Part shown: positions 2,050-42,142 of the stretch, piece by piece
Layout: every line of letters starts with the position of its first letter
How positions within the stretch are numbered: the stretch's first letter is position 1
Virus record (IMG/VR): IMGVR_UViG_3300042731_006244
Span: 1-61,623 of that record
Source of the DNA: a virus
DNA length: 61,623 bases
Direction: 5' to 3' (one strand)
Notes under the pieces: generated by a model
Database searches by the model: none
Told to the model about the DNA's origin: nothing
Seen by the model: only the letters and a program-made list of their open reading frames with translations
Translations under genes and position numbers: made by a program

Positions 2050-2245
2050 ATATAATACAGGAAAAGGATTGAATAGATTAGGAATCTTTCAAGGTGAATA
2101 TAATGAAAGTATAATTTTGCAAGATTTATGTATTTCTAGTCTTTATGTATTTTTACCTAAAATTCTAAGCGCCGGATCCACTGGATGGTATAAAGAATTA
2201 TCAGGACAAGAAAAAACAAAAATAATAAATAGGATGAAGAAATGA
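2027..2245 (+). CDS. Hypothetical protein, 72 aa
   Basis: ATG at 2027 chosen because GAAGAGG lies nine bases upstream; an in-frame GTG at 2009 is the alternative. Its stop overlaps the next start (ATGA), so it is coupled to the radical SAM gene. It overlaps the zinc-ribbon gene by 23 bases. No recognised domain. Confidence 0.5.
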   Translation: MQYQKIYEYNTGKGLNRLGIFQGEYNESIILQDLCISSLYVFLPKILSAGSTGWYKELSGQEKTKIINRMKK

Positions 2246-3207
2246 ACAAAATTATTCCGCGCCAAATCGCTATCGAAATAACAAACAGATGCAATCTTTT
2301 CTGCACTGACTGCATGCATACACTAGCCGGGAATCATAATCCTGTTGATATGAGCTTTGAGTATTTCAAATCAGTTGTGGATAGAAATACATTCGGGGCA
2401 ACCATTATGCCGTATATGAATAATGAACCACTTTTGCACCCGGATATAACCCGGATGATGGAATATGTAATAAGTAAAGGCCAGCGTTGTTATATCACGA
2501 CAAATGGTACCATATGGAATGAGGATTTATTCAAGCTGATTACAGAAAAAAATAGTTTTTATCAGATAATATTTTCATTAGATGGATTATGGAATAATAC
2601 AATAGAAAAATGTAGGCCAGGAAGTAATAAATATATACTTTTAAATTATATTGAACGATTTAAAAAATTGAAAGAAGAGAAAGGCAACAATTTAGATATG
2701 TGTCTTAAGATTTGTCGGCGAGGTCAGGATTGGGAAGAAATAGAAAATTTTATTTATTTTTGGCTTAAAGATGAAATTGATTATATTTGTATTGGCAATA
2801 TGCTTAACCAGGTAGGGATAGAAGTACGAAAATATCCCTGTCAATATTTTGATGATAAGTTTTTGCTGATCAAGGCAAATAAACATATAGTTCCTTGCAT
2901 GTATAATACAATTGTGTACTTTGTAAATTATTTTAATATAGGTAAACTTAATGAAACAGAAAACCTGATAGATGCTTATAACCGGCCTGTCTTGCAAAAA
3001 CTCCGGGAAGATCAGAATAATGGTATATTTCATGGCCCTTGCAAAAGCTGTAATAGTGCTTATACCGGACAGGGATTCAGGGCACAGTATGAGTTTAATG
3101 ACCCTGGTAAAAAAGAGATTGGCACACTATATGGATCATATGATTATTATAATATGACATTTTCCCTGAAAGATAAACCTATGGGAGTACAGTATGGAAA
3201 TATCTAA
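2242..3207 (+). CDS. Radical SAM protein with SPASM/twitch-like C-terminus (A)
   Basis: 321 residues. The CNLFCTDC motif (C17, C21, C24) is the CxxxCxxC that binds the SAM-cleaving 4Fe-4S cluster, followed by a partial TIM-barrel pattern (ITTNGT, FSLDGLW). The C-terminal third has spaced cysteines and ends in CKSCNSAYTGQGFR, suggesting an auxiliary Fe-S cluster. The gene at 3947 shares that ending. Such enzymes modify peptides, sugars or other small molecules; the substrate is unknown. It overlaps the following gene by 14 bases. Confidence 0.85.
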   Translation: MNKIIPRQIAIEITNRCNLFCTDCMHTLAGNHNPVDMSFEYFKSVVDRNTFGATIMPYMNNEPLLHPDITRMMEYVISKGQRCYITTNGTIWNEDLFKLITEKNSFYQIIFSLDGLWNNTIEKCRPGSNKYILLNYIERFKKLKEEKGNNLDMCLKICRRGQDWEEIENFIYFWLKDEIDYICIGNMLNQVGIEVRKYPCQYFDDKFLLIKANKHIVPCMYNTIVYFVNYFNIGKLNETENLIDAYNRPVLQKLREDQNNGIFHGPCKSCNSAYTGQGFRAQYEFNDPGKKEIGTLYGSYDYYNMTFSLKDKPMGVQYGNI

Positions 3208-3946: not shown

Positions 3947-5005
3947 ATGGCCCGGTATCCACGTCAAATTGTAATGGAGTTAAGTAGTGTATGTAATATG
4001 AAATGTACATTGTGTCCTGTTGTAGATGAGACGGCACAACAATACAAGCCTGGTTTTATGGATACTAAATTAGCAATATCTATTATCAACAGGATTAAAG
4101 AAGAGAAAATAAATTGCTCAATAACAAGCAATCTGCTTGGAGAATCTTTATTGCATCCAGATGCAGGGATTATATATAAGCACATGATAGATATGCAGAT
4201 TCCCTTTTCACTTACAACCAATGGAAACGTATGGAAACCTAAAATATTAGATAGGATATTAGATAAAGACAGCAGTTGTTATCTTCTTATTTTTTCTATA
4301 AATGGATTATATGATAACAAATCAAAAAGTCTTGAAAGGTGTATGACAGGATTTAACAAAGAAATGTCTAAAACGCTTATAAATCATGCAATCTCTTTAA
4401 AGTGGAAGAGAAAAATAAAAACTGAGATCGGCGTAAAGATAACACGACGTGGACAGGATTATGAAGAATTTGAGGAGTTAATAAATTACTGGCTAAATGA
4501 AAAGAAAGTAGATTTTGTCAGTATAGGTAAATCTCTTGTAAATAAAGCAGGCGGAATGAGAATATTTCCATGCCGATATCCTGATGATATGGCCCTTGAG
4601 ATAAGAAGTACAGGCGACACTATTGCGTGTGGTTGGCATCCAGAAGTTACAAACGAACTTAAGCTAACATTTGGACAGGTGCCTATAACCGGATCATTGA
4701 TTGATTTCTATAATAATGAAAAGTATAGAGAATTCAGAAAGCATAATTATACAGGTGACTTCCCGGATGTTTGCAAGCGATGTTCAATCGCTTATACTGG
4801 TGATGGATTCAGGGGAAGTGTTAGATTCAGGCATAGTAGATTCCCGAGACGTAAAATTTATTACCATGAAGATTATGCAAATATATTTTATAGCTACAAG
4901 AAGAAATATTCCAGGATTAGTTTTCTGCGTGAGTGGAAGCCGGATCCAGAAATAGTGAATGAAATAAAAAGAGAAGGCAAAAAATTATTTTGGATAAAGG
5001 AGTAA
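3947..5005 (+). CDS. Radical SAM protein with SPASM/twitch-like C-terminus (B)
   Basis: 352 residues, ATG after a strong AGGAGG. The CNMKCTLC motif (C16, C20, C23) carries the radical SAM cluster. SLTTNGNVW and FSINGLYD match paralogue A. The C-terminal cysteines end in CKRCSIAYTGDGFRG, the same signature as 2242. The two enzymes are diverged duplicates with probably related substrates. The extra roughly 50 residues at the end are basic. Confidence 0.85.
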   Translation: MARYPRQIVMELSSVCNMKCTLCPVVDETAQQYKPGFMDTKLAISIINRIKEEKINCSITSNLLGESLLHPDAGIIYKHMIDMQIPFSLTTNGNVWKPKILDRILDKDSSCYLLIFSINGLYDNKSKSLERCMTGFNKEMSKTLINHAISLKWKRKIKTEIGVKITRRGQDYEEFEELINYWLNEKKVDFVSIGKSLVNKAGGMRIFPCRYPDDMALEIRSTGDTIACGWHPEVTNELKLTFGQVPITGSLIDFYNNEKYREFRKHNYTGDFPDVCKRCSIAYTGDGFRGSVRFRHSRFPRRKIYYHEDYANIFYSYKKKYSRISFLREWKPDPEIVNEIKREGKKLFWIKE

Positions 5006-5012
5006 GAATAAA

Positions 5013-5363
5013 ATGAGAAAAGGGAAAAAATTCATGAGATGGATAATAGATAAAATAGGAAAATTATGTATTATAATTGCTTCTAAATGTATTTTTTATG
5101 AAAAAAAAATATATAAACAATACAAAAAATTTAAAGTTAATACAATAGAAAGGTTGGAAGATAAAAAAATACTTACAGCAGGATGCGGATCTGTATTTTT
5201 AAATAAAGAAGATCGTATTATTATATTATTGAATGGTATACATAATGTTATTTTTTGTAACTGGCATATAAAAGATGATAATATAAAAGAAAAAGCAATT
5301 GAAACTTTAAAAGATTATATAAACAAGCTGGAAAGCAATGAATATACTCCTGATCAATCTTAA
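5013..5363 (+). CDS. Hypothetical basic protein, 116 aa
   Basis: ATG eight bases after AAGGAG. Lys-rich, with a short hydrophobic stretch (LCIIIASKCIFY) near residue 20 that could associate with the membrane. Overlaps the start of the next radical SAM gene by 26 bases. No recognised domain. Confidence 0.5.
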   Translation: MRKGKKFMRWIIDKIGKLCIIIASKCIFYEKKIYKQYKKFKVNTIERLEDKKILTAGCGSVFLNKEDRIIILLNGIHNVIFCNWHIKDDNIKEKAIETLKDYINKLESNEYTPDQS

Positions 5364-6570
5364 ATCCCCCGTGTTAGCCGGGCAGAAAAAAACCTACATG
5401 CCACCTGTCCATTTATGGAAAATTCGATCAACTCTATATAGATTTGAACATATTGAAAATGTGCATATATGCGATGAACATATGGGAGAGGATTGTAAAG
5501 ATTTTTTTGCTTATGAAAAATATTATATTGCAGGAATTTCTTGTCGTTTTTCAATACAACATAATGAATATATTCAAGTTGCTAAAATTGCGAAAGAGAG
5601 TAAAACATATGTTGTATCAGGTGGGATACATGCAGCAGTAACAGAAAAACTCGATAATGTTGATATTGTTACGCAAATGAGAGGTGAAGAATTTTTTCAA
5701 AAGATATTGGGAGGCAATCTATCATTCAATATAAATGATTATCCATATCCAAAATTTTCAGAACAAGAAATAAGACAATATTGGGATAAGAATAGACCAC
5801 ATGATTTGCAGTCTAAAACAGACAAATGGATGAGTGTATTGACTTCTATAGGCTGTGATCGCAGATGTAATTTTTGTGGAATAAATAATTTTTCAGGGCA
5901 TTGGCAACCTTATTCCTTAACTTATATGGATAAATATTTTCAATATTTAGCAGAAAAAGGAATACAAGAATTATTTATAGAGGATGATAATTTTATTCTT
6001 GATAAGGATAGATTTATTAAACTTAGGAATTTAATTAAACGATTCAATTTTCATTGGTCCTGTCCTAATGGGATCTATGCCAGGAATCTGCTGGATGAAA
6101 AAGTATTGAAAGCATTTGCCGGTTCTGGGTGTTGGCGGGTATCACTTGCTTTTGAAACCGGATCTAAAAAATCGGCTAAATTAATGGGGCTTGGCAACAA
6201 ATGGATTAACTTCATCAGTGCTGAATATCTGGTTAATCGACTTAAGAAAATGGGTATTCTTACCTGTGGATTTTTTATTATAGGATATCCGGGAGAAACA
6301 GAAGAAGATATACGGAAAACTTTTGATTATGCAAATCGGCTTGATCTTGATCAACGGAATATTTACGTTGCTACACCATACCCTGGGACACAGCTTTACA
6401 AGGACTGTGTAGAAAATAATTATGTAAATGTGAGTGATGATTTTTATAGACAATTGTTATATAAAAATGCTATAATAAATACACCATGGTTATTAGCAGA
6501 GAGAGTCATGGAATTAAAGAAGGAAGATAGAGATAAGGCTTTAAAAAGGGGTAAATTATGTCAGGATTAA
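5338..6570 (+). CDS. B12-binding-like radical SAM enzyme
   Basis: 410 residues. The N-terminal 125 residues look like a Rossmann/cobalamin-binding-type domain (LLINLKSP, ISCRFSIQH, VVSGGIHA). The radical SAM motif is CDRRCNFC (C173, C177, C180), followed by FIEDDNF, SLAFETGS and FFIIGYPGET, typical of class B enzymes that include methyltransferases and methylthiotransferases. There is no visible TRAM domain. Substrate unknown. Third radical SAM gene in 4.4 kb. Confidence 0.85.
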   Translation: MNILLINLKSPVLAGQKKTYMPPVHLWKIRSTLYRFEHIENVHICDEHMGEDCKDFFAYEKYYIAGISCRFSIQHNEYIQVAKIAKESKTYVVSGGIHAAVTEKLDNVDIVTQMRGEEFFQKILGGNLSFNINDYPYPKFSEQEIRQYWDKNRPHDLQSKTDKWMSVLTSIGCDRRCNFCGINNFSGHWQPYSLTYMDKYFQYLAEKGIQELFIEDDNFILDKDRFIKLRNLIKRFNFHWSCPNGIYARNLLDEKVLKAFAGSGCWRVSLAFETGSKKSAKLMGLGNKWINFISAEYLVNRLKKMGILTCGFFIIGYPGETEEDIRKTFDYANRLDLDQRNIYVATPYPGTQLYKDCVENNYVNVSDDFYRQLLYKNAIINTPWLLAERVMELKKEDRDKALKRGKLCQD

Positions 6571-7761: not shown

Positions 7762-7795
7762 CCCGCATTCTTAATCGTACCATAGTGGGTTTTAG

Positions 7796-7822
7796 GGTGG
7801 CCCTTCGGGGCTGCCTTTTTTT
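7796..7822 (+). terminator. Intrinsic terminator with UUCG tetraloop
   Basis: GGTGGCCC and GGGCTGCC arms close a TTCG loop, followed by seven T. Ends the transcript of the 6923-7761 genes. Confidence 0.85.
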
Positions 7823-7823
7823 C

Positions 7824-7852
7824 TTGACATTATCCTGGAAAGTATGTATAAT
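7824..7852 (+). promoter_or_regulatory. Strong sigma70 promoter
   Basis: TTGACA, 17-base spacer, TATAAT: a consensus promoter directly after the terminator. It must start transcription near 7859. Confidence 0.85.
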
Positions 7853-7858
7853 AATAGA

Positions 7859-7973
7859 TGTGCGTGATATTTTTTTTGTATTCATGAAAACCTCCTTGTA
7901 TATATGTTTTTTTGTTTGCCTTGACTGCACGCACAACCGGTAGCAGCACTCCCAGGCTGCTGCCGGATTTTTT
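7859..7973 (+). ncRNA. Small RNA of about 115 nt with exposed CCUCC
   Basis: From the predicted start, TGTGCGTG (7859-7866) pairs perfectly with CACGCACA (7928-7935). The 61-base loop is U-rich and contains CCTCC (7891-7895), the complement of a Shine-Dalgarno sequence. A GC-rich hairpin with CCGGTAGCAGC / GCTGCTGCCGG arms and six T ends the RNA at about 7973. It is a self-contained transcription unit; a trans-acting translational repressor is one possibility. Confidence 0.7.
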
Positions 7974-7988
7974 GAAGGGCGGTAAAGG

Positions 7989-8108
7989 ATGAAAATGATA
8001 TTAAGTATAGGTATTGCTATGATAATTTGCTTTTTTTCTGCTATAATTTGGGTGATATATTTTTTCAAGAATTTATTTGGGAGGAAATATGAAAACCGAT
8101 CTAATTAA
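7989..8108 (+). CDS. Very small membrane protein, 39 aa
   Basis: AAAGGATG start, one transmembrane helix (ILSIGIAMIICFFSAIIWVIYFF) and a short basic tail. Overlaps the next gene by 20 bases. Possibly a lysis or membrane accessory peptide. Confidence 0.5.
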   Translation: MKMILSIGIAMIICFFSAIIWVIYFFKNLFGRKYENRSN

Positions 8109-8361
8109 GGGTTCTATGATGCGATACCTAACCCTTTGGTCTTTCCGGGTAGGTGCTATCATAATTGGCTATGCAGTAGCTATGCTTACTTGGTCATTTT
8201 TGGTAAGTGCTACCGAATGGGCTGGAACATTTCTCGGGATATTCATGGCCGGAGTAGGGCTTATCGGGGGAGGGATTGCCGGAAAAGGTTTTCAGAAACG
8301 ATATGAAAACAATCATCAGGAAAGACAGGGGAAGGACAGGGAAAATGACAGAGGAATATAA
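8089..8361 (+). CDS. Two-helix membrane protein, 90 aa; holin-like candidate
   Basis: Start at 8089 chosen for its GGGAGGAAAT ribosome site. Two predicted transmembrane helices (residues about 18-40 and 44-66) with a glycine-rich second helix and a highly charged tail. Size and topology fit a class II holin, and it lies upstream of the spanin-like genes. Confidence 0.5.
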   Translation: MKTDLIKGSMMRYLTLWSFRVGAIIIGYAVAMLTWSFLVSATEWAGTFLGIFMAGVGLIGGGIAGKGFQKRYENNHQERQGKDRENDRGI

Positions 8362-17488: not shown

Positions 17489-17859
17489 TACCAACAATAA
17501 CAGAAGGATGTAATGTAGTAATCAAAAAAGAAAAGTTGGAGGAATATTTTTCGAGCATGAAAGAGCGAATAAACGAGATGAGCTGGAAAAAAGAGTTGGA
17601 ACAAATCGAACAAAATCAAATTCGGGGCACTGTGAAAACAGTATACAAAAATATACAACGGGCAGAGATTATATTTGCAGACCATGAATATACTCTACCA
17701 ATTAAGACGTTAATCAGGATCGAATTGAATCTATGGAAATTGTTTTCGAGTTTTGTCGATGCTGCGGTACAAGTAGCAGAAGTAGCGCAAAAAAATCAGA
17801 TTTCTTCTTTGAAAAACCTGATTGCTATCAAGAAAGCATGGACAGGTAAGGATACCTAG
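17485..17859 (+). CDS. Hypothetical protein, 124 aa
   Basis: Helical Lys/Glu-rich N-terminus, then a small beta segment and a C-terminal amphipathic helix. Preceded by AAAGGAGA. No family recognised. Confidence 0.5.
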   Translation: MIPTITEGCNVVIKKEKLEEYFSSMKERINEMSWKKELEQIEQNQIRGTVKTVYKNIQRAEIIFADHEYTLPIKTLIRIELNLWKLFSSFVDAAVQVAEVAQKNQISSLKNLIAIKKAWTGKDT

Positions 17860-17899
17860 GGATCTCATACGTCCACCTACGTCCACTGAGATCCCTGGG
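17855..17899 (+). terminator. Long hairpin with tandem loop repeat
   Basis: CCTAGGGATCTCA and TGAGATCCCTGGG form a 13-base-pair stem (one GU), enclosing TACGTCCACC followed by TACGTCCAC. It overlaps the stop of the preceding gene. There is no U-run, so it may act as RNA stabiliser or binding site rather than terminator. Confidence 0.45.
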
Positions 17900-17921
17900 T
17901 TTTCAGGGAAAGGAGGTGTCA

Positions 17922-17954
17922 ATGATAATTGATAGAGTATTTCAAAATGAATAA
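17922..17954 (+). CDS. Possible leader peptide, 10 aa
   Basis: A perfect AAAGGAGGTGTCA ribosome site precedes a ten-codon frame (MIIDRVFQNE). So strong a site for so short a frame suggests a leader peptide or a decoy ribosome-binding site. Confidence 0.3.
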   Translation: MIIDRVFQNE

Positions 17955-18052
17955 GAAGGATGATTACCTGGGACTATCCCCCTGGTTTTCATATAGCAAG
18001 GTTGGCGGGGGCAGGGAGACTTGCCCCTTCCGGTATATTACAAGGAGGGTTT

Positions 18053-30796: not shown

Positions 30797-31104
30797 AATT
30801 AACTGTAATAGAAAAGAATCAGATAATACAAAAGATAATGGCAATAAGTGAGAGTTTCCTAGATGCTATAGATGAGATTGAGAAAGCATCTACTTACAAA
30901 ACCAGGAAAGAAATAAAACTGACTGACAAAGAACTTAAAGACCGGAAACAAGAATTTATAAACGGCTTTATTTTACTTATAAGAAATTTTGTTTGCCTGG
31001 AGCAGTATGTTGAAAAGAAAGGATTGAAAGAGGAATCACAGGAGTTTATTAAGCTTGTGATTATTGAATTCAAAAAGCGGAAAGAAAAGCGGGAGCAAGG
31101 TTGA
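30793..31104 (+). CDS. Helical hypothetical protein, 103 aa
   Basis: Lys/Glu-rich, coiled-coil-like throughout. ATGA coupling to the GIY-YIG gene. Ends on the promoter of the Csf operon. Confidence 0.5.
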   Translation: MKLTVIEKNQIIQKIMAISESFLDAIDEIEKASTYKTRKEIKLTDKELKDRKQEFINGFILLIRNFVCLEQYVEKKGLKEESQEFIKLVIIEFKKRKEKREQG

Positions 31105-31130
31105 CATATAAGTAAGGCCATGCTATAATA
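31102..31130 (+). promoter_or_regulatory. Strong sigma70 promoter ahead of the Csf operon
   Basis: TTGACA, 17 bases, TATAAT: full consensus. The next genes are three small frames and then csf2. No terminator is visible before the terminase genes, so this may drive csf2-csf1-rSAM-csf3 and packaging genes together. Confidence 0.8.
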
Positions 31131-31165
31131 ATGGCAAGGGTAAAGTGAATAAAAGGAGGCCCCGG

Positions 31166-31432
31166 ATGATATGGGACATAATTAAACAAATAATTGCAGC
31201 AGGGATGGTATCATGGATAGGATTTCTTATTATTAGTGTATACAAGGGATTTAAAATAAAAGATAAGTTATCAGACTGGGTACAAGCTTTTATAAAAATA
31301 AAAGATTATACAAAAGCAGATAATTACATAGATGCGTATAATCACGCAGAAGATAAGCTGTATATCTGGAATATTATTTTATGGACAAGTATCTTTGTGC
31401 TATTAACTTTTTTAATCATATTTTTTAGGTGA
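31166..31432 (+). CDS. Two-helix membrane protein, 88 aa
   Basis: ATG at 31166 chosen, seven bases after AAAAGGAGG; GTG at 31145 possible. Hydrophobic helix near the N-terminus and another at the C-terminus (ILWTSIFVLLTFLIIFF). First gene after the promoter. Confidence 0.55.
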   Translation: MIWDIIKQIIAAGMVSWIGFLIISVYKGFKIKDKLSDWVQAFIKIKDYTKADNYIDAYNHAEDKLYIWNIILWTSIFVLLTFLIIFFR

Positions 31433-31435
31433 ATA

Positions 31436-31585
31436 ATGTTAGAGAATCAAGAAATGAAAATTAATGAATATTATGCTGATTTAAAAGGAATTAGTTATGA
31501 GGAATACTTACAAGAAAAAGAAATAGAAAAAAATGATACAAGTGATTATAATTATGATCCTACTTATGGCGGGAGATGTACTTAA
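31436..31585 (+). CDS. Acidic hypothetical protein, 49 aa
   Basis: Glu/Tyr-rich (MLENQEMKINEYYADLKGISYEEYLQEKEIEK). Unknown; second gene of the promoter-led operon. Confidence 0.45.
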   Translation: MLENQEMKINEYYADLKGISYEEYLQEKEIEKNDTSDYNYDPTYGGRCT

Positions 31586-31618
31586 CTATGTTAAGAAATA
31601 TAAGGCATGGAGTGAGTA

Positions 31619-31771
31619 ATGGCAAGGCGAAAAGTAAATAAAAATAATTGTCAATGTATGTATTGTGGTGCTTATTTTAAACTTGATTATAGAAATAGAA
31701 AAGGATGTTGTATTAAATGTGAACAATTAACTATAAAGCTACTATTAAAAGAAGGTTTGAATAAGAAATGA
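31619..31771 (+). CDS. Small zinc-finger protein, 50 aa
   Basis: CQCMYCGAYFKL and GCCIKCEQ: a four-cysteine ribbon. It begins MARRKVN and directly precedes csf2. A DNA- or RNA-binding partner is possible. Confidence 0.5.
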   Translation: MARRKVNKNNCQCMYCGAYFKLDYRNRKGCCIKCEQLTIKLLLKEGLNKK

Positions 31772-31794
31772 CTAAATAATTAAGGAGGTCCAGA

Positions 31795-33048
31795 ATGGAC
31801 ATAATTTATGTAATTAAAATTTTATATGCATTAAGATTGCATGCGAATTTAAAAATCAAAAGAAATTTATCAGAGTTTATTGCTGATAAAATTGTGCAAG
31901 CAAGTTCGGAACCAACATTATTGGGGGTAGTTGAGAAACTGGCAAAACTTTTAAATTCTGATATGGGAAAAATTTATGATATATCAGGAATTGATTTTTT
32001 AATTATTCAAAAAACTGATGGATTGAAATATCTTAATTGGTTGCGACAATACCCTAGAATAGCAGCTATGATAATTTGTCTTTCAAAATGGAAAGATATA
32101 GAATTGGCTTGTGAACAAATAGAAGTTGAGGATATTGAAGATTCAGAGGGACAAGCTTTGCCGCAAGGAAGTTTTGATATTGGAATTAATTTCACGACAA
32201 TATCTCCGCTTTCTCATGGATCTGATCAGAAAGCAGGAAATGCGACTCTTTTTAGAAGAATGCAAGTTTTAAGTGATACCGGAAATGTTTTGAATTTGCC
32301 ATTTTATGCAGGTAATGCAATTAGAGGAGAGATAAGAGATTTATTGGCAGATCATTTTCTTGAATCAATAGGAATTGGAGTTAATAAAACAAATCCAAAG
32401 ATAACAAAATGGTTTTTTCATATTATTTATTCTGGTGGGGGTTTAGCGTCAGATTCAGAAGCATCAAAAGCTTTTTCTGAAAAATTGGGGAAATTTGGAT
32501 CTTCCAGGGCAGAAGAAATACATTTATTTCGGGATACATTACCATTTTTTTCATTATTGGGTGGTGGACTCGGAAATAGAATATTATCTGGACGTATTAA
32601 TATTTCTGATTTTCGGCCAGGATGTTATGAATGGGGAAATGGTGCAAAAAAAGTACATGAACTTTTTGAATGGCAATATCTAACAAGACGTGATGATTTT
32701 GAAGGACATGAAGAAGGAGAAAACGCTTCCATGATTGCAAATACGGAATGTATTAAAGCAGGTGTGAAATTTTATGGCGGAATAGACATGTCAAAGCATA
32801 TTTCTTATCTTGAAAAAGCAGCTTTAGGATTGGGACTTGAATTATTACAAGAGAAAGGATATATAGGAGCAGATAATAGAAGGGGATTTGGTAAAATAAA
32901 AGTAGAATTGACAAATTGTCCTGAGCCTAAACTATATTTAGATTTTTTAAAAGATAAGAAAGATGAAATATTAAAATATCTTAATGAATTGAATGTATTT
33001 GCAATAGAAAAGAAAATCGTTAAAATTGCAAAGAAAGAAAATAAATGA
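31795..33048 (+). CDS. csf2: Csf2/Cas7-like RAMP protein, type IV CRISPR backbone subunit
   Basis: 417 residues after a perfect AAGGAGGTCCAGA site. SFDIGINFTTISPLSHGS (about 126-143), FRRMQVL and LPFYAGNAIRGEIRDLL (about 168-184) are hallmarks of Cas7-group RAMPs. GADNRRGFGKI (about 358-368) is the C-terminal glycine-rich loop. Cas7 subunits form a helical filament along a guide RNA. About 120 extra N-terminal residues precede the RAMP core. The stop overlaps the csf1 start (ATGA). Confidence 0.8.
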   Translation: MDIIYVIKILYALRLHANLKIKRNLSEFIADKIVQASSEPTLLGVVEKLAKLLNSDMGKIYDISGIDFLIIQKTDGLKYLNWLRQYPRIAAMIICLSKWKDIELACEQIEVEDIEDSEGQALPQGSFDIGINFTTISPLSHGSDQKAGNATLFRRMQVLSDTGNVLNLPFYAGNAIRGEIRDLLADHFLESIGIGVNKTNPKITKWFFHIIYSGGGLASDSEASKAFSEKLGKFGSSRAEEIHLFRDTLPFFSLLGGGLGNRILSGRINISDFRPGCYEWGNGAKKVHELFEWQYLTRRDDFEGHEEGENASMIANTECIKAGVKFYGGIDMSKHISYLEKAALGLGLELLQEKGYIGADNRRGFGKIKVELTNCPEPKLYLDFLKDKKDEILKYLNELNVFAIEKKIVKIAKKENK

Positions 33049-33707
33049 ATGCGTTTGATTTAATTTTTAATCAGATTAGAAATTATCCTGATATAAATAT
33101 TCCTGAACAGACAGAGAAAGGTATATGTTGTGTTACCGGGGAAGAATGTCAAACTATAAAACGGAAAGGTTTTTTTTCATCTAATTTTACAAATACAAAT
33201 ATCTTAAAAGCTCCTGATTCCGATAAGATTGGAATAGCTGCTGCTATTGTTTTGAAATATCGTCCTGAACGATCATCATGGTTTGTTAATGAAAAAGAAT
33301 TTATAAGATTTGATAAGAATTTATTTCGTGATATGTTTTTATCAGGAGTTAAAAATTCTAAATGTTGGGCTATATATATAACGACATCTTATAAAAAACA
33401 TGGTGCATTTGTAACTACAATAAATAAAGGTAAATATGGTATATGGAGATTTGAACAGTTAAATGTCGATGCAAGGGATGGAAAAAAAAATAGATTATGG
33501 TATAATAGCATATTTGCAGCTTTAAAAGATGGAATAGGAAGAAGTGTTATTGAAACTCTTGATTGTTCTGCATGGTTAATCAAAAAAATTGGTCTTAAAA
33601 AATGGTTGCAATTTTATGACTGGGCTAAAGATAAATATCAAAGTCCTCTTTATAAATTGTGTTGCTATTTATTACCAAGTCAACAGGATTTGAAAAATGA
33701 AAATTAA
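33045..33707 (+). CDS. csf1: Csf1-like type IV signature protein (Cas8-like)
   Basis: 220 residues. KGICCVTGEECQTIKRKGFFSSNFTN (about 26-50) has a cysteine knuckle and the F-S-S-N-F-T segment expected for Csf1, the small Cas8-like subunit of type IV complexes. The rest is mixed alpha/beta with LWYNSIFAALKDGIGRSV. The zinc site appears degenerate (C28, C29 and C35; no clear second CxxC). Assignment rests partly on synteny between Csf2- and Csf3-like genes. Confidence 0.7.
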   Translation: MNAFDLIFNQIRNYPDINIPEQTEKGICCVTGEECQTIKRKGFFSSNFTNTNILKAPDSDKIGIAAAIVLKYRPERSSWFVNEKEFIRFDKNLFRDMFLSGVKNSKCWAIYITTSYKKHGAFVTTINKGKYGIWRFEQLNVDARDGKKNRLWYNSIFAALKDGIGRSVIETLDCSAWLIKKIGLKKWLQFYDWAKDKYQSPLYKLCCYLLPSQQDLKNEN

Positions 33708-34947
33708 TATAATAGAACCATGTGCAAAAGATAGAAAAGGAAGTATTGGAGCTTTTTATGTAAAATATCATGCAGAAAAGGCAGGATTTAAAGTAGATTA
33801 TTTAAATTCAACAAATGCTAAGTATGATATAGAAATGATAAGTTTACATCATTGTTCAGATTTTATAAAATTAGCACAATTACCTAAAAAAGCAAAAATA
33901 AGATTAGTAGGCGGACATCCTATGCAAAATAATCCACGTCCTATTATTTCATTTGCAGATGCGGTTTTTATTGGGGAAGCAGAAAATTCAATAGGAAAAT
34001 CTCTTAATATTATTAAACAAGAAGGGATAAAAGGATTAAGCAAGATACCGGGATGGATAATATCTGAGAATTGGGAATATGGAAAAGAAATCCCAAAAAC
34101 AATAATTTGTGATCCATTGCCTGATAATCCACCTTATCTAAATCGTCCAGAAACATTATCCAGGGCATGGTATGTTGAAATAGCTAGGGGATGTCCATTT
34201 AAATGTTATTATTGTGAATTAGGATATAGTACAAAATTTAGAACATATAAATATAATCAGATAAAAAAAGTTATAGATTTATGTGATTTATCTAAAACAA
34301 AAAAAATAAATTTTTATGCACCTGATGAAGCAAGTCATTCAGATTATAAAAAATTATATCAATATCTTTCTGGTAAAGGATTTTTATCGGCATTTTCTTC
34401 AATGCGATTAGAATCTGTTATGAAAAATAATCCTCCAATTAAAATGAATCAACTTATAAGAATAGGAATAGATGGATTGACAGAAAAAATAAGATTTTTA
34501 GTTAATAAAAAAATAACTAATAAAATGATAGTTGATTATTTTAAAATGTTATTAAATAATGGACATGTTAATTTTAAAATGTTTTTTATATTTGGATATC
34601 CCTGGGAAAAGTTAGAAGATTTTAATGAATTCGAAAAGTTAATGAAACAAATTTTTAGATTAGATATGAAAAAAAATGTAAGTTTAAGAATTAAATGGAC
34701 GCCTTTTATACCACAGCCATGTACTCCTTTGAGAAATAAGAATGCTAAATATAAGTGGAAAATGGTTGATAAAATAATGGTATGGCATGCGCTAAATAAA
34801 CGTCCTAAAAATGAGCCTGGGTTTTTTGTTGAAAATGACGGATTAATGACTGCTAAAAGTCATAAATTGCAATGCGATTTAACTAAAGGTGATGAGAGAA
34901 TTTTGTATAATTTTAAAAAAATAGAAAGGCCATTATATGAGTTTTGA
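33697..34947 (+). CDS. B12-binding-like radical SAM protein embedded in the csf operon
   Basis: 416 residues. An N-terminal Rossmann/cobalamin-like domain (KINIIEPCAKD, IRLVGGHPMQ, FIGEAENS) precedes GCPFKCYYCELG with C166, C170 and C173, the CxxxCxxC radical SAM site, then FYAPDEAS, GIDGLTEKIR and FFIFGYPWEK. It sits between csf1 and csf3, overlapping both by about 11 bases. Type IV-B loci usually carry a CysH-like gene beside csf genes; here a radical SAM gene holds the comparable accessory position. Confidence 0.85.
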   Translation: MKINIIEPCAKDRKGSIGAFYVKYHAEKAGFKVDYLNSTNAKYDIEMISLHHCSDFIKLAQLPKKAKIRLVGGHPMQNNPRPIISFADAVFIGEAENSIGKSLNIIKQEGIKGLSKIPGWIISENWEYGKEIPKTIICDPLPDNPPYLNRPETLSRAWYVEIARGCPFKCYYCELGYSTKFRTYKYNQIKKVIDLCDLSKTKKINFYAPDEASHSDYKKLYQYLSGKGFLSAFSSMRLESVMKNNPPIKMNQLIRIGIDGLTEKIRFLVNKKITNKMIVDYFKMLLNNGHVNFKMFFIFGYPWEKLEDFNEFEKLMKQIFRLDMKKNVSLRIKWTPFIPQPCTPLRNKNAKYKWKMVDKIMVWHALNKRPKNEPGFFVENDGLMTAKSHKLQCDLTKGDERILYNFKKIERPLYEF

Positions 34948-35590
34948 AAATTTACAGATAACATTTTTTCTTGATGGTACAGGATTGATAATTGACAAAA
35001 ATGAACCGATACATTTAGATGCATTACTTGCATGGTCATTAATACCAAAATTTGTAAAATTGGATAATATAGGAAGATCGGATAAGCCATTTGATTGCCC
35101 TCTTCCGCTTGAAAAATGGAATATAAAAAATCAGTGGGGCTGGAAAGCGTCTGCATTGTTCCCTGGGGATTATCAAATTGAAACTATACAATACTGGAGA
35201 AAGAAATTTAGACAAAACAGAATAGAAAAAATGAAAGGTTCGGTTAATACGCAACAAGGAATATACAGAGAATATAATACTCCCATGTGCTTGTTATTGA
35301 CAGAGAAAATGATTGCTTATGCTGTTGGAGAGAAAAGTAAGATAAAGAAAGCATTAAAAGAAATAAAGCATCTTGGTAAAAAACGGGCATATGGAAAAGG
35401 GAAAGTAATAAGTGTAAAAGTAGAAGAAATTGAAGAGGATTGGAGTATTGTAAAAGATGGAAAAGCTATGCGGTGGTTACCTAAAAAAAATGGTATACGA
35501 TTAGTGAGATGTAGACCACCTTATTGGAATAGAATAGAACGAATAAATTGCTGTGAAGTTGGTGAAAAATATAGTAATGGCAAGAAGTAA
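34937..35590 (+). CDS. csf3: Csf3/Cas5-like RAMP protein
   Basis: 217 residues. N-terminal RAMP strand FENLQITFFLDGTGLI and PIHLDALLAWSL, basic centre, and GKKRAYGKGKV (about 147-157), the glycine-rich loop of Cas5/Csf3. Cas5 caps the 5' handle of the guide RNA. Followed by RWLPKKNGIRLVRCRPPYW. The last 14 bases overlap the small terminase start, tying the csf genes to packaging genes. Confidence 0.78.
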   Translation: MSFENLQITFFLDGTGLIIDKNEPIHLDALLAWSLIPKFVKLDNIGRSDKPFDCPLPLEKWNIKNQWGWKASALFPGDYQIETIQYWRKKFRQNRIEKMKGSVNTQQGIYREYNTPMCLLLTEKMIAYAVGEKSKIKKALKEIKHLGKKRAYGKGKVISVKVEEIEEDWSIVKDGKAMRWLPKKNGIRLVRCRPPYWNRIERINCCEVGEKYSNGKK

Positions 35591-36002
35591 GCATTCAACA
35601 ACAGCACAACATATACTTGAAGATCGAATACATATGATAATGAATTTATGTCTTGCTTGTACTCCTAGATGGGAGATTCTTCAAATAGTTTCAAAAGAAA
35701 AGTGGCGGGTTTCTGACAGAACTATTGATTCATATATTACTAAGGCCAGGGAAAGAATTGTAGCTACAAAAATCCCGGAAAAAGAAGAATGGATAAAAGA
35801 GGCAAAGGCCCGATATGAAGATTTGTATAAACAATCTCATAATGTAGGTGATTATGGGGAATGCAGGCGTATATTAGATAGCATGGGGAAAATGTTTGGG
35901 TTTGAAGTTACTAATATAAATGCTAATATCATAGGCATAACTATGGAAGATCTGCACCGAGAAGCGGATGAATGGGAAGCAGAACAGGAGAAAGGGAAAT
36001 AA
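35577..36002 (+). CDS. terS: Terminase small subunit
   Basis: 141 residues from MARSKHSTTAQHI. N-terminal helix-turn-helix (RWEILQIVSKEKWRVSDRTIDSYITKARERI) for pac/cos recognition, helical oligomerisation region behind. Directly upstream of, and overlapping, the large subunit. Confidence 0.8.
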   Translation: MARSKHSTTAQHILEDRIHMIMNLCLACTPRWEILQIVSKEKWRVSDRTIDSYITKARERIVATKIPEKEEWIKEAKARYEDLYKQSHNVGDYGECRRILDSMGKMFGFEVTNINANIIGITMEDLHREADEWEAEQEKGK

Positions 36003-37440
36003 ACCCTTTCTATTCAAATACATAGACAATCCTCTTATGTATATAGAAAAGCGTTTAGGTATCCGTACTTGGTCTGGAATGCGGTATATTGTAGATTCGG
36101 TATGGAATAATGAGCGAACGTCTGTCCGAGCAGCTCATGGAGTGGGTAAAACATTTACGGCTGCGGTAATAGCGGTTACTTTTCTTAATCTTTTTCGGAA
36201 ATCAATTGTGATTACAACAGCTCCAGTAGAAAGACAGGTCCGGGATTTGCTATGGAAAGAAATTGGTAATCTTTACATGACAGTTATAGGCTGGGTTAGT
36301 GGTAACTATACAACCTCACCGCTCCGGGTGAAAATACAACCAGATTGGTATATGGTAGGGTTTTCTACGGAAAAACAGCACAATCTGGAAGGATATCACG
36401 GTCCCCATATTCTCTGGATACTTGATGAAGCTAAGGGCCTGCCGCAATGGGTATTCGATGCCGTTGAGGGATCTATGACAGGGGGTACTGCCAGGATATT
36501 AGAGATATCGACTACTGATGGGGCGAAGCAACAAACACCTTTTTTTAAGCATCACACGAGAGAGAGAACCCAGTGGAAAACTATACATTTCTCAGCTTTT
36601 GATTCGCCATTTGTGAGGCCATACAAATTTAAACATCTCAATCCTAAAATGTGCAAGGAATTACAGAAATATGGAAAACCCAAGAGAAAAATGGAATGGG
36701 ATTTAAAATTAAAAAAGAAAATACAGGTTACAGATGAAAAGTGGATTAAAGATAAAGAGAAAACCTGGTTATTAAACAGAAAAGATTTATGGGATACAAA
36801 AGTATGTGGTGAATTATCTGATATAACCATGTTCAATATTATCCCGCTATCCTGGGTAGAATCTGCGGTAAATGCAGAAGTCGTGAATACAAATAATACA
36901 AGTGAATATGGTGTAGATATTGGCGCTGGCGGGGATCCATCGGTCATTATAAAAAGGCTTGACAAAAAGGTAGTATACTGTTATGCTTGGGTGGATAGTA
37001 ATACTATGAATACCACGGGGAAAATAGTACAGATGCGTGATGATGCAGGAATAGTGAAAATAGATATGATCGGAGTAGGACATGGACCATTTGATAGGCT
37101 TGCGGAGATGGGAATCCCCGTAATTGGTATTGATAGCCGGAATAAACCACAACCACAATATGAAGATGAATATAGAAATCTTCGTGCGGAAATGTGGTTC
37201 AGTCTGAGAAATCTTTTTTTTCAACAATATACACACGGTAATGTGATATCAATACCAGATGATGAGGAACTTATTGAAGAATTAACAGTAGTACAATATG
37301 AGACCGCATCGAATGGCAGAATAGTTGTGGAAGACAAGGAGAAAGTGAAAGAACGGATAGGGCGGTCAACAAATAAGGCGGATGCTCTAGTATATGCATT
37401 TGCTGATATGAGATATTGGTTAATGGGAAATGAGGAGTAA
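35968..37440 (+). CDS. terL: Terminase large subunit
   Basis: 490 residues. Walker A AAHGVGKT (55-62), Walker B-like HILWILDEAKGL (about 145-156), coupling region, then YGVDIGAGGDPSVI and KADALVYAFADMRYW of the RNase H-like nuclease domain. Powers DNA packaging. Overlaps terS by 35 bases. Confidence 0.92.
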   Translation: MNGKQNRRKGNKPFLFKYIDNPLMYIEKRLGIRTWSGMRYIVDSVWNNERTSVRAAHGVGKTFTAAVIAVTFLNLFRKSIVITTAPVERQVRDLLWKEIGNLYMTVIGWVSGNYTTSPLRVKIQPDWYMVGFSTEKQHNLEGYHGPHILWILDEAKGLPQWVFDAVEGSMTGGTARILEISTTDGAKQQTPFFKHHTRERTQWKTIHFSAFDSPFVRPYKFKHLNPKMCKELQKYGKPKRKMEWDLKLKKKIQVTDEKWIKDKEKTWLLNRKDLWDTKVCGELSDITMFNIIPLSWVESAVNAEVVNTNNTSEYGVDIGAGGDPSVIIKRLDKKVVYCYAWVDSNTMNTTGKIVQMRDDAGIVKIDMIGVGHGPFDRLAEMGIPVIGIDSRNKPQPQYEDEYRNLRAEMWFSLRNLFFQQYTHGNVISIPDDEELIEELTVVQYETASNGRIVVEDKEKVKERIGRSTNKADALVYAFADMRYWLMGNEE

Positions 37441-41934: not shown

Positions 41935-42012
41935 GAGACTGTAGCTCAGTTGGTAGAGCAATAGAGATAGGTCTATTCGTATGTGTCGCTAGTTCAAGTC
42001 TAGTCAGTCTCC
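41935..42012 (+). tRNA. tRNA-like gene 1 (non-canonical)
   Basis: Acceptor GAGACTG/CAGTCTC with an extra G-C pair, D-arm TAGCTCAGTTGGTAGAGC and T-arm GCTAG-TTCAAGT-CTAGT are all good. The anticodon arm is not: AATAG/CTATT leaves an eight-base loop lacking the usual T33 layout, and the variable segment is about ten bases. No anticodon can be assigned with confidence. May be a tRNA mimic rather than an adaptor. Confidence 0.5.
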
Positions 42013-42017
42013 TGTGG

Positions 42018-42142
42018 AGAATGGTAGCTCAGTTGGTAGAGCGCTATGTACTTTATTCGATAGTTTCCCTGTATTGTGGTGATAGAATAAAGATACTTCG
42101 ACTATAATCGAGCGGTCACGGGTTCGAGTCCCGCCCATTCTC
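42018..42142 (+). tRNA. tRNA-like gene 2 with embedded Y-like stem (copy B)
   Basis: Acceptor AGAATGG/CCATTCT (plus outer G-C), D-arm and T-arm (CGGG-TTCGAGT-CCCG) are canonical. The anticodon region is replaced by the stem motif in swapped order: CTTTATTC (42051-42058), GATAGTTTCC, a short loop, TGGTGATA, GAATAAAG (42085-42092), TACTTCGA. CGCT/AGCG may close it. It reads as a tRNA body carrying a Ro-type stem, not as a normal tRNA. Confidence 0.6.

Follow-up and report, generated by a model that had tools for sequence, protein, structure and literature searches.

We analyzed a virus record of 61,623 bases, IMGVR_UViG_3300042731_006244 (the window, meaning the whole stretch of DNA), which carries an operon of type IV CRISPR-Cas (csf) genes interrupted by the gene of a radical SAM enzyme (rSAM). 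The operon occupies positions 31795-35590 on the plus strand and consists of four overlapping intact genes, csf2, csf1, a B12-type rSAM gene and csf3, with overlaps of 4 nucleotides (nt) for csf2/csf1, 11 nt for csf1/rSAM and 11 nt for rSAM/csf3. Its features are:

31795..33048, plus strand: csf2 (predicted fused cas11-cas7), backbone subunit; profile and fold matches, Cas7 domain at about residues 127-404
31795..32148, plus strand: Cas11-like (small-subunit) N-terminal domain of Csf2, with six helices over about residues 1-118; from profiles and the structural model
33045..33707, plus strand: csf1 (Cas8-like large subunit); PADLOC PDLC01721 3.7e-12, PDLC01574 4.7e-7
33697..34947, plus strand: rSAM, a B12-type radical SAM enzyme occupying the accessory (CysH) slot; PF04055, fold and motif
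34192..34215, plus strand: CX3CX2C motif (C166, C170, C173) for a [4Fe-4S] cluster; from the rSAM family alignment
34937..35590, plus strand: csf3 (Cas5-like); PADLOC typeIV_Cas5 and TIGR03116

Profile searches identified the three Csf proteins. Csf2 matched PADLOC typeIV_Cas7 (PDLC01724) with an E value of 2e-45 and NCBIfam TIGR03115 with 4e-11, Csf3 matched PADLOC typeIV_Cas5 (1e-43) and NCBIfam TIGR03116 (2.4e-28), and Csf1 matched PADLOC typeIV_Cas8 (3.7e-12). Because the NCBIfam scores of Csf2 and Csf3 fall under the equivalog cut-offs, both are diverged members of their families. The AlphaFold model of Csf2 (predicted local distance difference test score, pLDDT, 81) aligned with type IV Csf2 at a Z score of ~16, compared with ~12 for type III Csm3, and csf1 is kept in six close relatives at 37-50% identity. 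The Csf2-type Cas7, Csf3-type Cas5 and Csf1-type large subunit that define type IV are all present, the Csf1 homologue being accompanied by no other large subunit in the operon. With respect to subtype, the operon resembles IV-B in having a Cas11-like small subunit (detected by weak, independent profiles) and in having no array and no adaptation genes; the CysH-like gene (3'-phosphoadenosine-5'-phosphosulfate (PAPS) reductase family) expected for IV-B is missing, and its slot is occupied by the rSAM gene. The DinG helicase, Cas6 and array of IV-A were not found in the window record, and the operon has a Csf1 homologue where IV-C has a Cas10-like large subunit with an HD domain. The system is best described as a IV-B-like variant whose Cas11 and Cas7 are fused and whose CysH slot is taken by a radical SAM enzyme.

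Searches for further components found no CRISPR array or mini-array near the operon or across the 61.6-kb record, no Cas1, Cas6 or DinG-type helicase in the window record, no PAPS-reductase (PF01507) or DUF3440 (PF11922) match in the whole record and no Rfam RNA near the operon; because the virus record may be incomplete, these absences hold for this record only. The only Rfam matches were two tRNA genes at 41935-42142, in the structural gene region. A first-pass annotation of this DNA had described Csf2/Cas7-, Csf1- and Csf3/Cas5-like proteins in one coupled operon without an array, with a B12-type radical SAM gene between csf1 and csf3, and all of this was borne out, both RAMP-like (repeat-associated mysterious protein) subunits falling within type IV Cas7 and Cas5. 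Its description of a diverged IV-B-like system agrees with the profiles and the missing array and is corrected here in that the variant is Cas11-Cas7-fused; the Cas11-like domain of Csf2 and the overlap of the operon into the terminase genes, described below, were both absent from it.

Csf2 comprises 417 residues in the window, compared with ~285-340 in unfused loci, and its first ~118 residues are helical in the AlphaFold model. This region matched PADLOC Cas11_0_IV (E 0.002 for the window protein; matches in 7 of 20 relatives, the best at 3.6e-5) and a solved Cas11c chain (PDB 11fs_N, E 0.002). Alignment by hhalign with unfused type IV Cas11 gave a probability of 70% (E 4e-5), with unrelated profiles and column-shuffled controls reaching at most 2.5%, and the csf2-csf1 junction leaves no space for a separate cas11. 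In the fold search with Csf2, matches to the Cas7 domain filled the list, and none of the listed matches was to the N-terminal domain. Taken together, the profiles and the model indicate that Csf2 is a Cas11-Cas7 fusion. Considering that in the published IV-B structure a Cas11 sits on each Csf2-Csf2 interface (PMC7937560), a near one-to-one fusion of Cas11 and Cas7 would be sterically plausible.

The protein encoded between csf1 and csf3 matched PF04055 at 1.3e-10, above the family cut-off, and a Pfam B12-binding domain below the cut-off. Its AlphaFold model (pLDDT 90) had MgmA as the top fold match (Z 28.1 over 365 residues), followed by AprD4 (22.7), CysS (22.1) and MiaB (21.7); sequence profiles concur on MgmA and CysS. 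Among 17 members of the rSAM family, C166, C170 and C173 are the only invariant cysteines. The CX3CX2C motif together with an N-terminal Rossmann (B12-binding-like) domain is the combination found in B12-dependent radical SAM methylases, and on the strength of the model the enzyme is most likely a cobalamin-dependent methylase. MgmA (PDB 9ccb), a B12-dependent enzyme that C-methylates a glutamine of methyl-coenzyme M reductase, shares its fold over nearly the whole rSAM protein (365 aligned residues), as well as the motif and the Rossmann domain, but the two proteins are only 17% identical, a substrate is known for MgmA only and MgmA has no known csf linkage. Assignment to the methylthiotransferases (MiaB/RimO/MtaB) was rejected, as the 17 members have no three extra invariant cysteines; since only the CX3CX2C cysteines are invariant, the enzyme cannot be a methylthiotransferase that carries a second cluster. 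Three further radical SAM genes lie near the left end of the window (2242-3207, 3947-5005 and 5338-6570) and are not closely related to the csf-linked one.

Scans of viral contigs with single proteins (Csf2, rSAM, Csf3 or terminase) found no relatives. Close viral relatives were reached with an alignment including archaeal-plasmid Csf2, and searching again with the fused family added more, among them three from genome contigs (one Sulfuriferula multivorans prophage and two Anaerolineae contigs). A scan of viral contigs with the rSAM family only, whose seed rows came partly from csf loci, returned 17 contigs at 509 bits or more, two of them (loci L053 and L054; related loci carry L numbers) near-identical, and the next 21 at 55 bits or less. 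As the bit scores drop from 509 to 55, the rSAM proteins form a discrete family. The gene adjoins csf2 and/or csf3 in all 17 high-scoring contigs and in none of the 21 weak ones, so that the recurrent radical SAM neighbour looked for in related loci is indeed found, and it was the rSAM scans, not the csf scans, that first led to most of the unfused rSAM loci. At 1e-40, no family member was detected in 298 genomes from the class to which an Anaerolineales relative belongs (positive control, 2.7e-212), and no close rSAM relative among 50,697 phages and 72,556 plasmids, where the proteins matched were just ~22% identical; of the three matches in plasmids, two are annotated as TIGR03960. The association of radical SAM and csf genes is not mentioned in the literature searched, which included the 2025 CRISPR classification and did not extend to the two main 2020-2021 type IV surveys.

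Comparison of the loci delineates an accessory slot with alternative occupants. Fused loci have the gene order csf2-csf1-X-csf3, where X is an enzyme gene: rSAM in the window, L012, L015, L016, L028, L046, L058 and L066 (in L040 the contig ends after rSAM); a CysH-type gene in L011, L014, L023, L025, L029, L031, L032 and L039; and an IbrA/IbrB-like pair, with or without CysH, in L013, L027, L030, L036 and L037. L038, on the chromosome of Sulfuriferula multivorans TTN, is a further fused locus of the CysH type. The IbrA/IbrB-like pair consists of a DUF3440 PAPS-reductase and a ParB-like protein (at 2493-4195 in L013). The same pair also occurs in the csf accessory slot of plasmid loci L006 and L008, haloarchaeal plasmids included. 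In unfused loci the enzyme gene, CysH/IbrA or rSAM, lies 3' of csf3 or between csf2 and csf3. An unfused rSAM after csf3 takes the position that CysH has in plasmids and in phage SPI1, and in L060 the rSAM gene stands between csf2 and csf3, which is where L018 and L019 have CysH. In both gene orders, the rSAM and CysH/IbrA classes never occur together at one locus. L023/L024 and L031/L032 have CysH-class genes in which no PP-loop motif is clear and whose class was assigned by profile only, and at the Gordonia plasmid locus L009 neither enzyme class is recognizable by Pfam. Position 118 of Csf3 (window 35288-35290) is proline in 12/12 CysH-class fused loci tested and in 0/8 rSAM loci; three Csf columns in all separate the enzyme classes, but 8-11% of comparable label sets do so equally well.

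To follow the enzyme classes through the history of the cores, we used a tree of 38 loci based on Csf2 and Csf3. Six changes of enzyme class occur on this tree, of which well-supported branches force at least four; a single rSAM clade was rejected by the approximately unbiased (AU) test (p = 3e-11) at a cost of 306 log-likelihood units. The window groups with L011, which has CysH, and L012, which has rSAM, in a supported trio. On the rSAM tree, by contrast, the window pairs with L062 (67% identity, support 100/99), a locus with an unfused core whose Csf2 and Csf3 are 34% and 30% identical to those of the window, and this disparity indicates that the enzyme gene moved between distant cores. The reverse disparity is seen between L015 and L016, which are 92%, 89% and 90% identical in Csf2, Csf1 and Csf3 but 48% identical along the whole length of rSAM; their DNA is strongly similar (83-87%) only in the csf genes on either side. 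This contrast implies that the enzyme was exchanged as a cassette. The proposal of the first-pass annotation that a radical SAM enzyme replaces CysH is thus upheld by the CysH-type genes in the identical slot of relatives, by their never occurring with rSAM and by the repeated swaps on the tree.

Several loci of the rSAM group have peculiarities of their own. In L055 (7613-9016) and L057 (7523-9004), a second, different B12-type radical SAM gene overlaps csf3 and the csf-linked rSAM gene, placing two in tandem. L054, an unfused rSAM locus, has a Cas6e-like gene (7765-8352, PF08798 3e-13) between csf2 and csf3, and its 48.8-kb record has no array despite this gene. In L055 (IMGVR 2820327087_000001), positions 17790-17970 hold three 36-nt CRISPR-like repeats (GTTGCAACAGGGTCCCTCCCCGAAAGGGGTTTGAAA) and two spacers within a phage gene, with 34 nt of phage sequence duplicated at the flanks; they represent either an assembly join at a phage-targeting host spacer or a real mini-array insertion.

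The surroundings of the operon in the window include three further features:

31101..31129, plus strand: sigma-70-type promoter-like site, a consensus match only (TTGACA-17-TATAAT, 12/12, extended TG)
likely start 35577, plus strand: probable terminase small subunit; no family match, identified by position only
35968-37440, plus strand: terminase large subunit; both terminase genes are outside the Csf system and physically coupled to the operon

The consensus promoter reported earlier is a full 12/12 match, but it does not stand directly before csf2: it lies ~0.7 kb 5' of the gene, with several small open reading frames in between. Judged by its sequence, the site probably promotes the gene block that contains the Csf operon. 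At the other end, csf3 overlaps the presumed terminase small subunit gene by 14 nt, and the operon thereby runs into the terminase genes. Csf operons tend toward the packaging and head gene region. In the window and L013 they lie directly 5' of the terminase genes, in L011 and L012 they are within ~3 kb of them, and the operon of the Mu-like L014 is located between its portal and minor head genes.

Among known systems the closest is type IV-B (the Mycobacterium sp. JS623 Csf complex, PDB 7jhy, and plasmid and phage loci with a CysH-like gene), which shares with the window the Csf1, Csf2, Csf3 and Cas11-like parts, the lack of an array, adaptation genes, nuclease and DinG, a single accessory enzyme gene in the operon, and residence on a mobile element. 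The window differs in the Cas11 fused to the Cas7 N-terminus, in its enzyme, a radical SAM rather than a CysH-like ATP-pyrophosphatase, and in the gene order, cas7-csf1-enzyme-csf3 as opposed to csf1-cas11-csf2-csf3-cysH. Skermania phage SPI1 (KR011061) likewise carries a csf operon with one accessory enzyme, but its Cas11 is separate, its CysH-type enzyme follows csf3, and its Csf2 is 26% identical over 40% of the query. The type IV-B locus of Fuxivirus, a Bathyarchaeia virus, is also virus-borne and without adaptation genes, whereas it has CysH and a one-spacer mini-array and no radical SAM enzyme was reported for it (PMC10848311). The type III-D/III-E fusion effectors also join Cas7 and Cas11 in one polypeptide, but have several Cas7 domains per chain and an active RNase, whereas the window protein has one Cas11 and one type IV Cas7 domain.

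The studied IV-B complex holds heterogeneous RNA of ~55-60 nt whose conformation is suited to base pairing (PMC7937560), and one published proposal is that CasCysH adenylates nucleic acid to which the ribonucleoprotein (RNP) is bound (PMC8175902); the CysH-like gene has been termed strictly conserved in IV-B and likely key to its role (PMC8175902; PMC7937560). We consider it reasonably probable that the operon encodes an array-less, phage-borne type IV-B-like Csf RNP with an exchangeable modifying enzyme, here a radical SAM enzyme in the CysH slot, that marks a substrate held by the RNP. The Cas11-Cas7 fusion would form the RNA-binding backbone, capped by Csf1 and Csf3; the RNP would assemble on a small RNA and offer the enzyme either that RNA or nucleic acid paired with it; the enzyme would place a covalent mark, for example a methyl group; and the mark may alter the function of host or rival nucleic acids in infection. 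As csf cores swap their enzyme as a cassette, the RNP appears to need a chemically active partner while tolerating different chemistries, and the exchange of CysH for an unrelated, probably methylating enzyme suggests that covalent modification, not a given reaction, is what is kept. The repeated swaps suggest that the complex exists to deliver or receive a chemical modification rather than to cut. A bolder version, which we regard as rather doubtful, would make the Csf RNP a CRISPR-derived analogue of guide-RNA modification complexes, in which an interchangeable enzyme, either an ATP-pyrophosphatase or a radical SAM protein, is brought by a captured small RNA to a nucleic-acid target for marking, not cutting.

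A number of points weigh against the marking of an RNP-held substrate. The profile matches that identify the Csf2 N-terminus as Cas11 are weak, though independent; cobalamin use by rSAM follows from its fold only; and the reaction of the enzyme, its substrate and its contact with the Csf proteins are proposals only. ATP-pyrophosphatases and radical SAM enzymes catalyze different reactions, so that the functional equivalence of rSAM and CysH follows from position and exclusion only. The pattern at Csf3 position 118, a possible enzyme-docking surface, is not significant against matched controls, and many of the relatives are metagenomic contigs.

The substrate would be the RNP-bound RNA or nucleic acid paired with it, and the main rival in this respect is the Csf proteins themselves, which rSAM might modify during complex maturation as MgmA methylates a glutamine in methyl-coenzyme M reductase. 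We consider this unlikely: the top fold match is indeed a protein C-methylase (Z 28.1, next 22.7) and the genes are coupled in one operon, but MiaB, an RNA enzyme, also scores 21.7 and a common fold reveals no substrate, the hint at Csf3 position 118 fails against the matched controls, and no single Csf1 residue separates the two enzyme classes. An anti-defence sponge, with the RNP capturing host CRISPR RNAs (crRNAs) or guide RNAs of other kinds for the enzyme to inactivate or mark, appears similarly improbable. It has been proposed for array-less IV-B (discussed in PMC8175902) and would suit a phage-borne operon adjoining packaging genes, and the CRISPR repeats in the phage record of L055 suggest a host spacer against that phage; however, the single studied IV-B complex did not enrich crRNAs (PMC7937560) and no guide-specific element was found.

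Least likely of all, with only a slight chance, is that rSAM is metabolic cargo in a tolerant insertion slot, unconnected to the RNP. Anaerobic phages often carry radical SAM genes, the window record has three more, and the slot also accepts IbrA/IbrB-like genes, but cargo would hardly account for the strict linkage of the rSAM family to csf genes (17/17 versus 0/21), its strict exclusion with CysH in two gene orders or the stop/start overlaps at both ends of the gene. The marking of an RNP-held substrate by an exchangeable enzyme is the reading we prefer.

Type IV-B is the least understood CRISPR-Cas subtype. The repeated replacement of its CysH gene by an unrelated enzyme implies that the common requirement is a catalytic partner, not sulfate/PAPS chemistry. 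For finding a common substrate, the window (rSAM) and L011 (CysH) offer two chemically different enzymes on closely related cores, and in L015 and L016 two cores that are almost alike carry different rSAM genes. The requirement for a catalytic partner narrows the hypotheses on the role of these complexes to the modification of something that the RNP holds.

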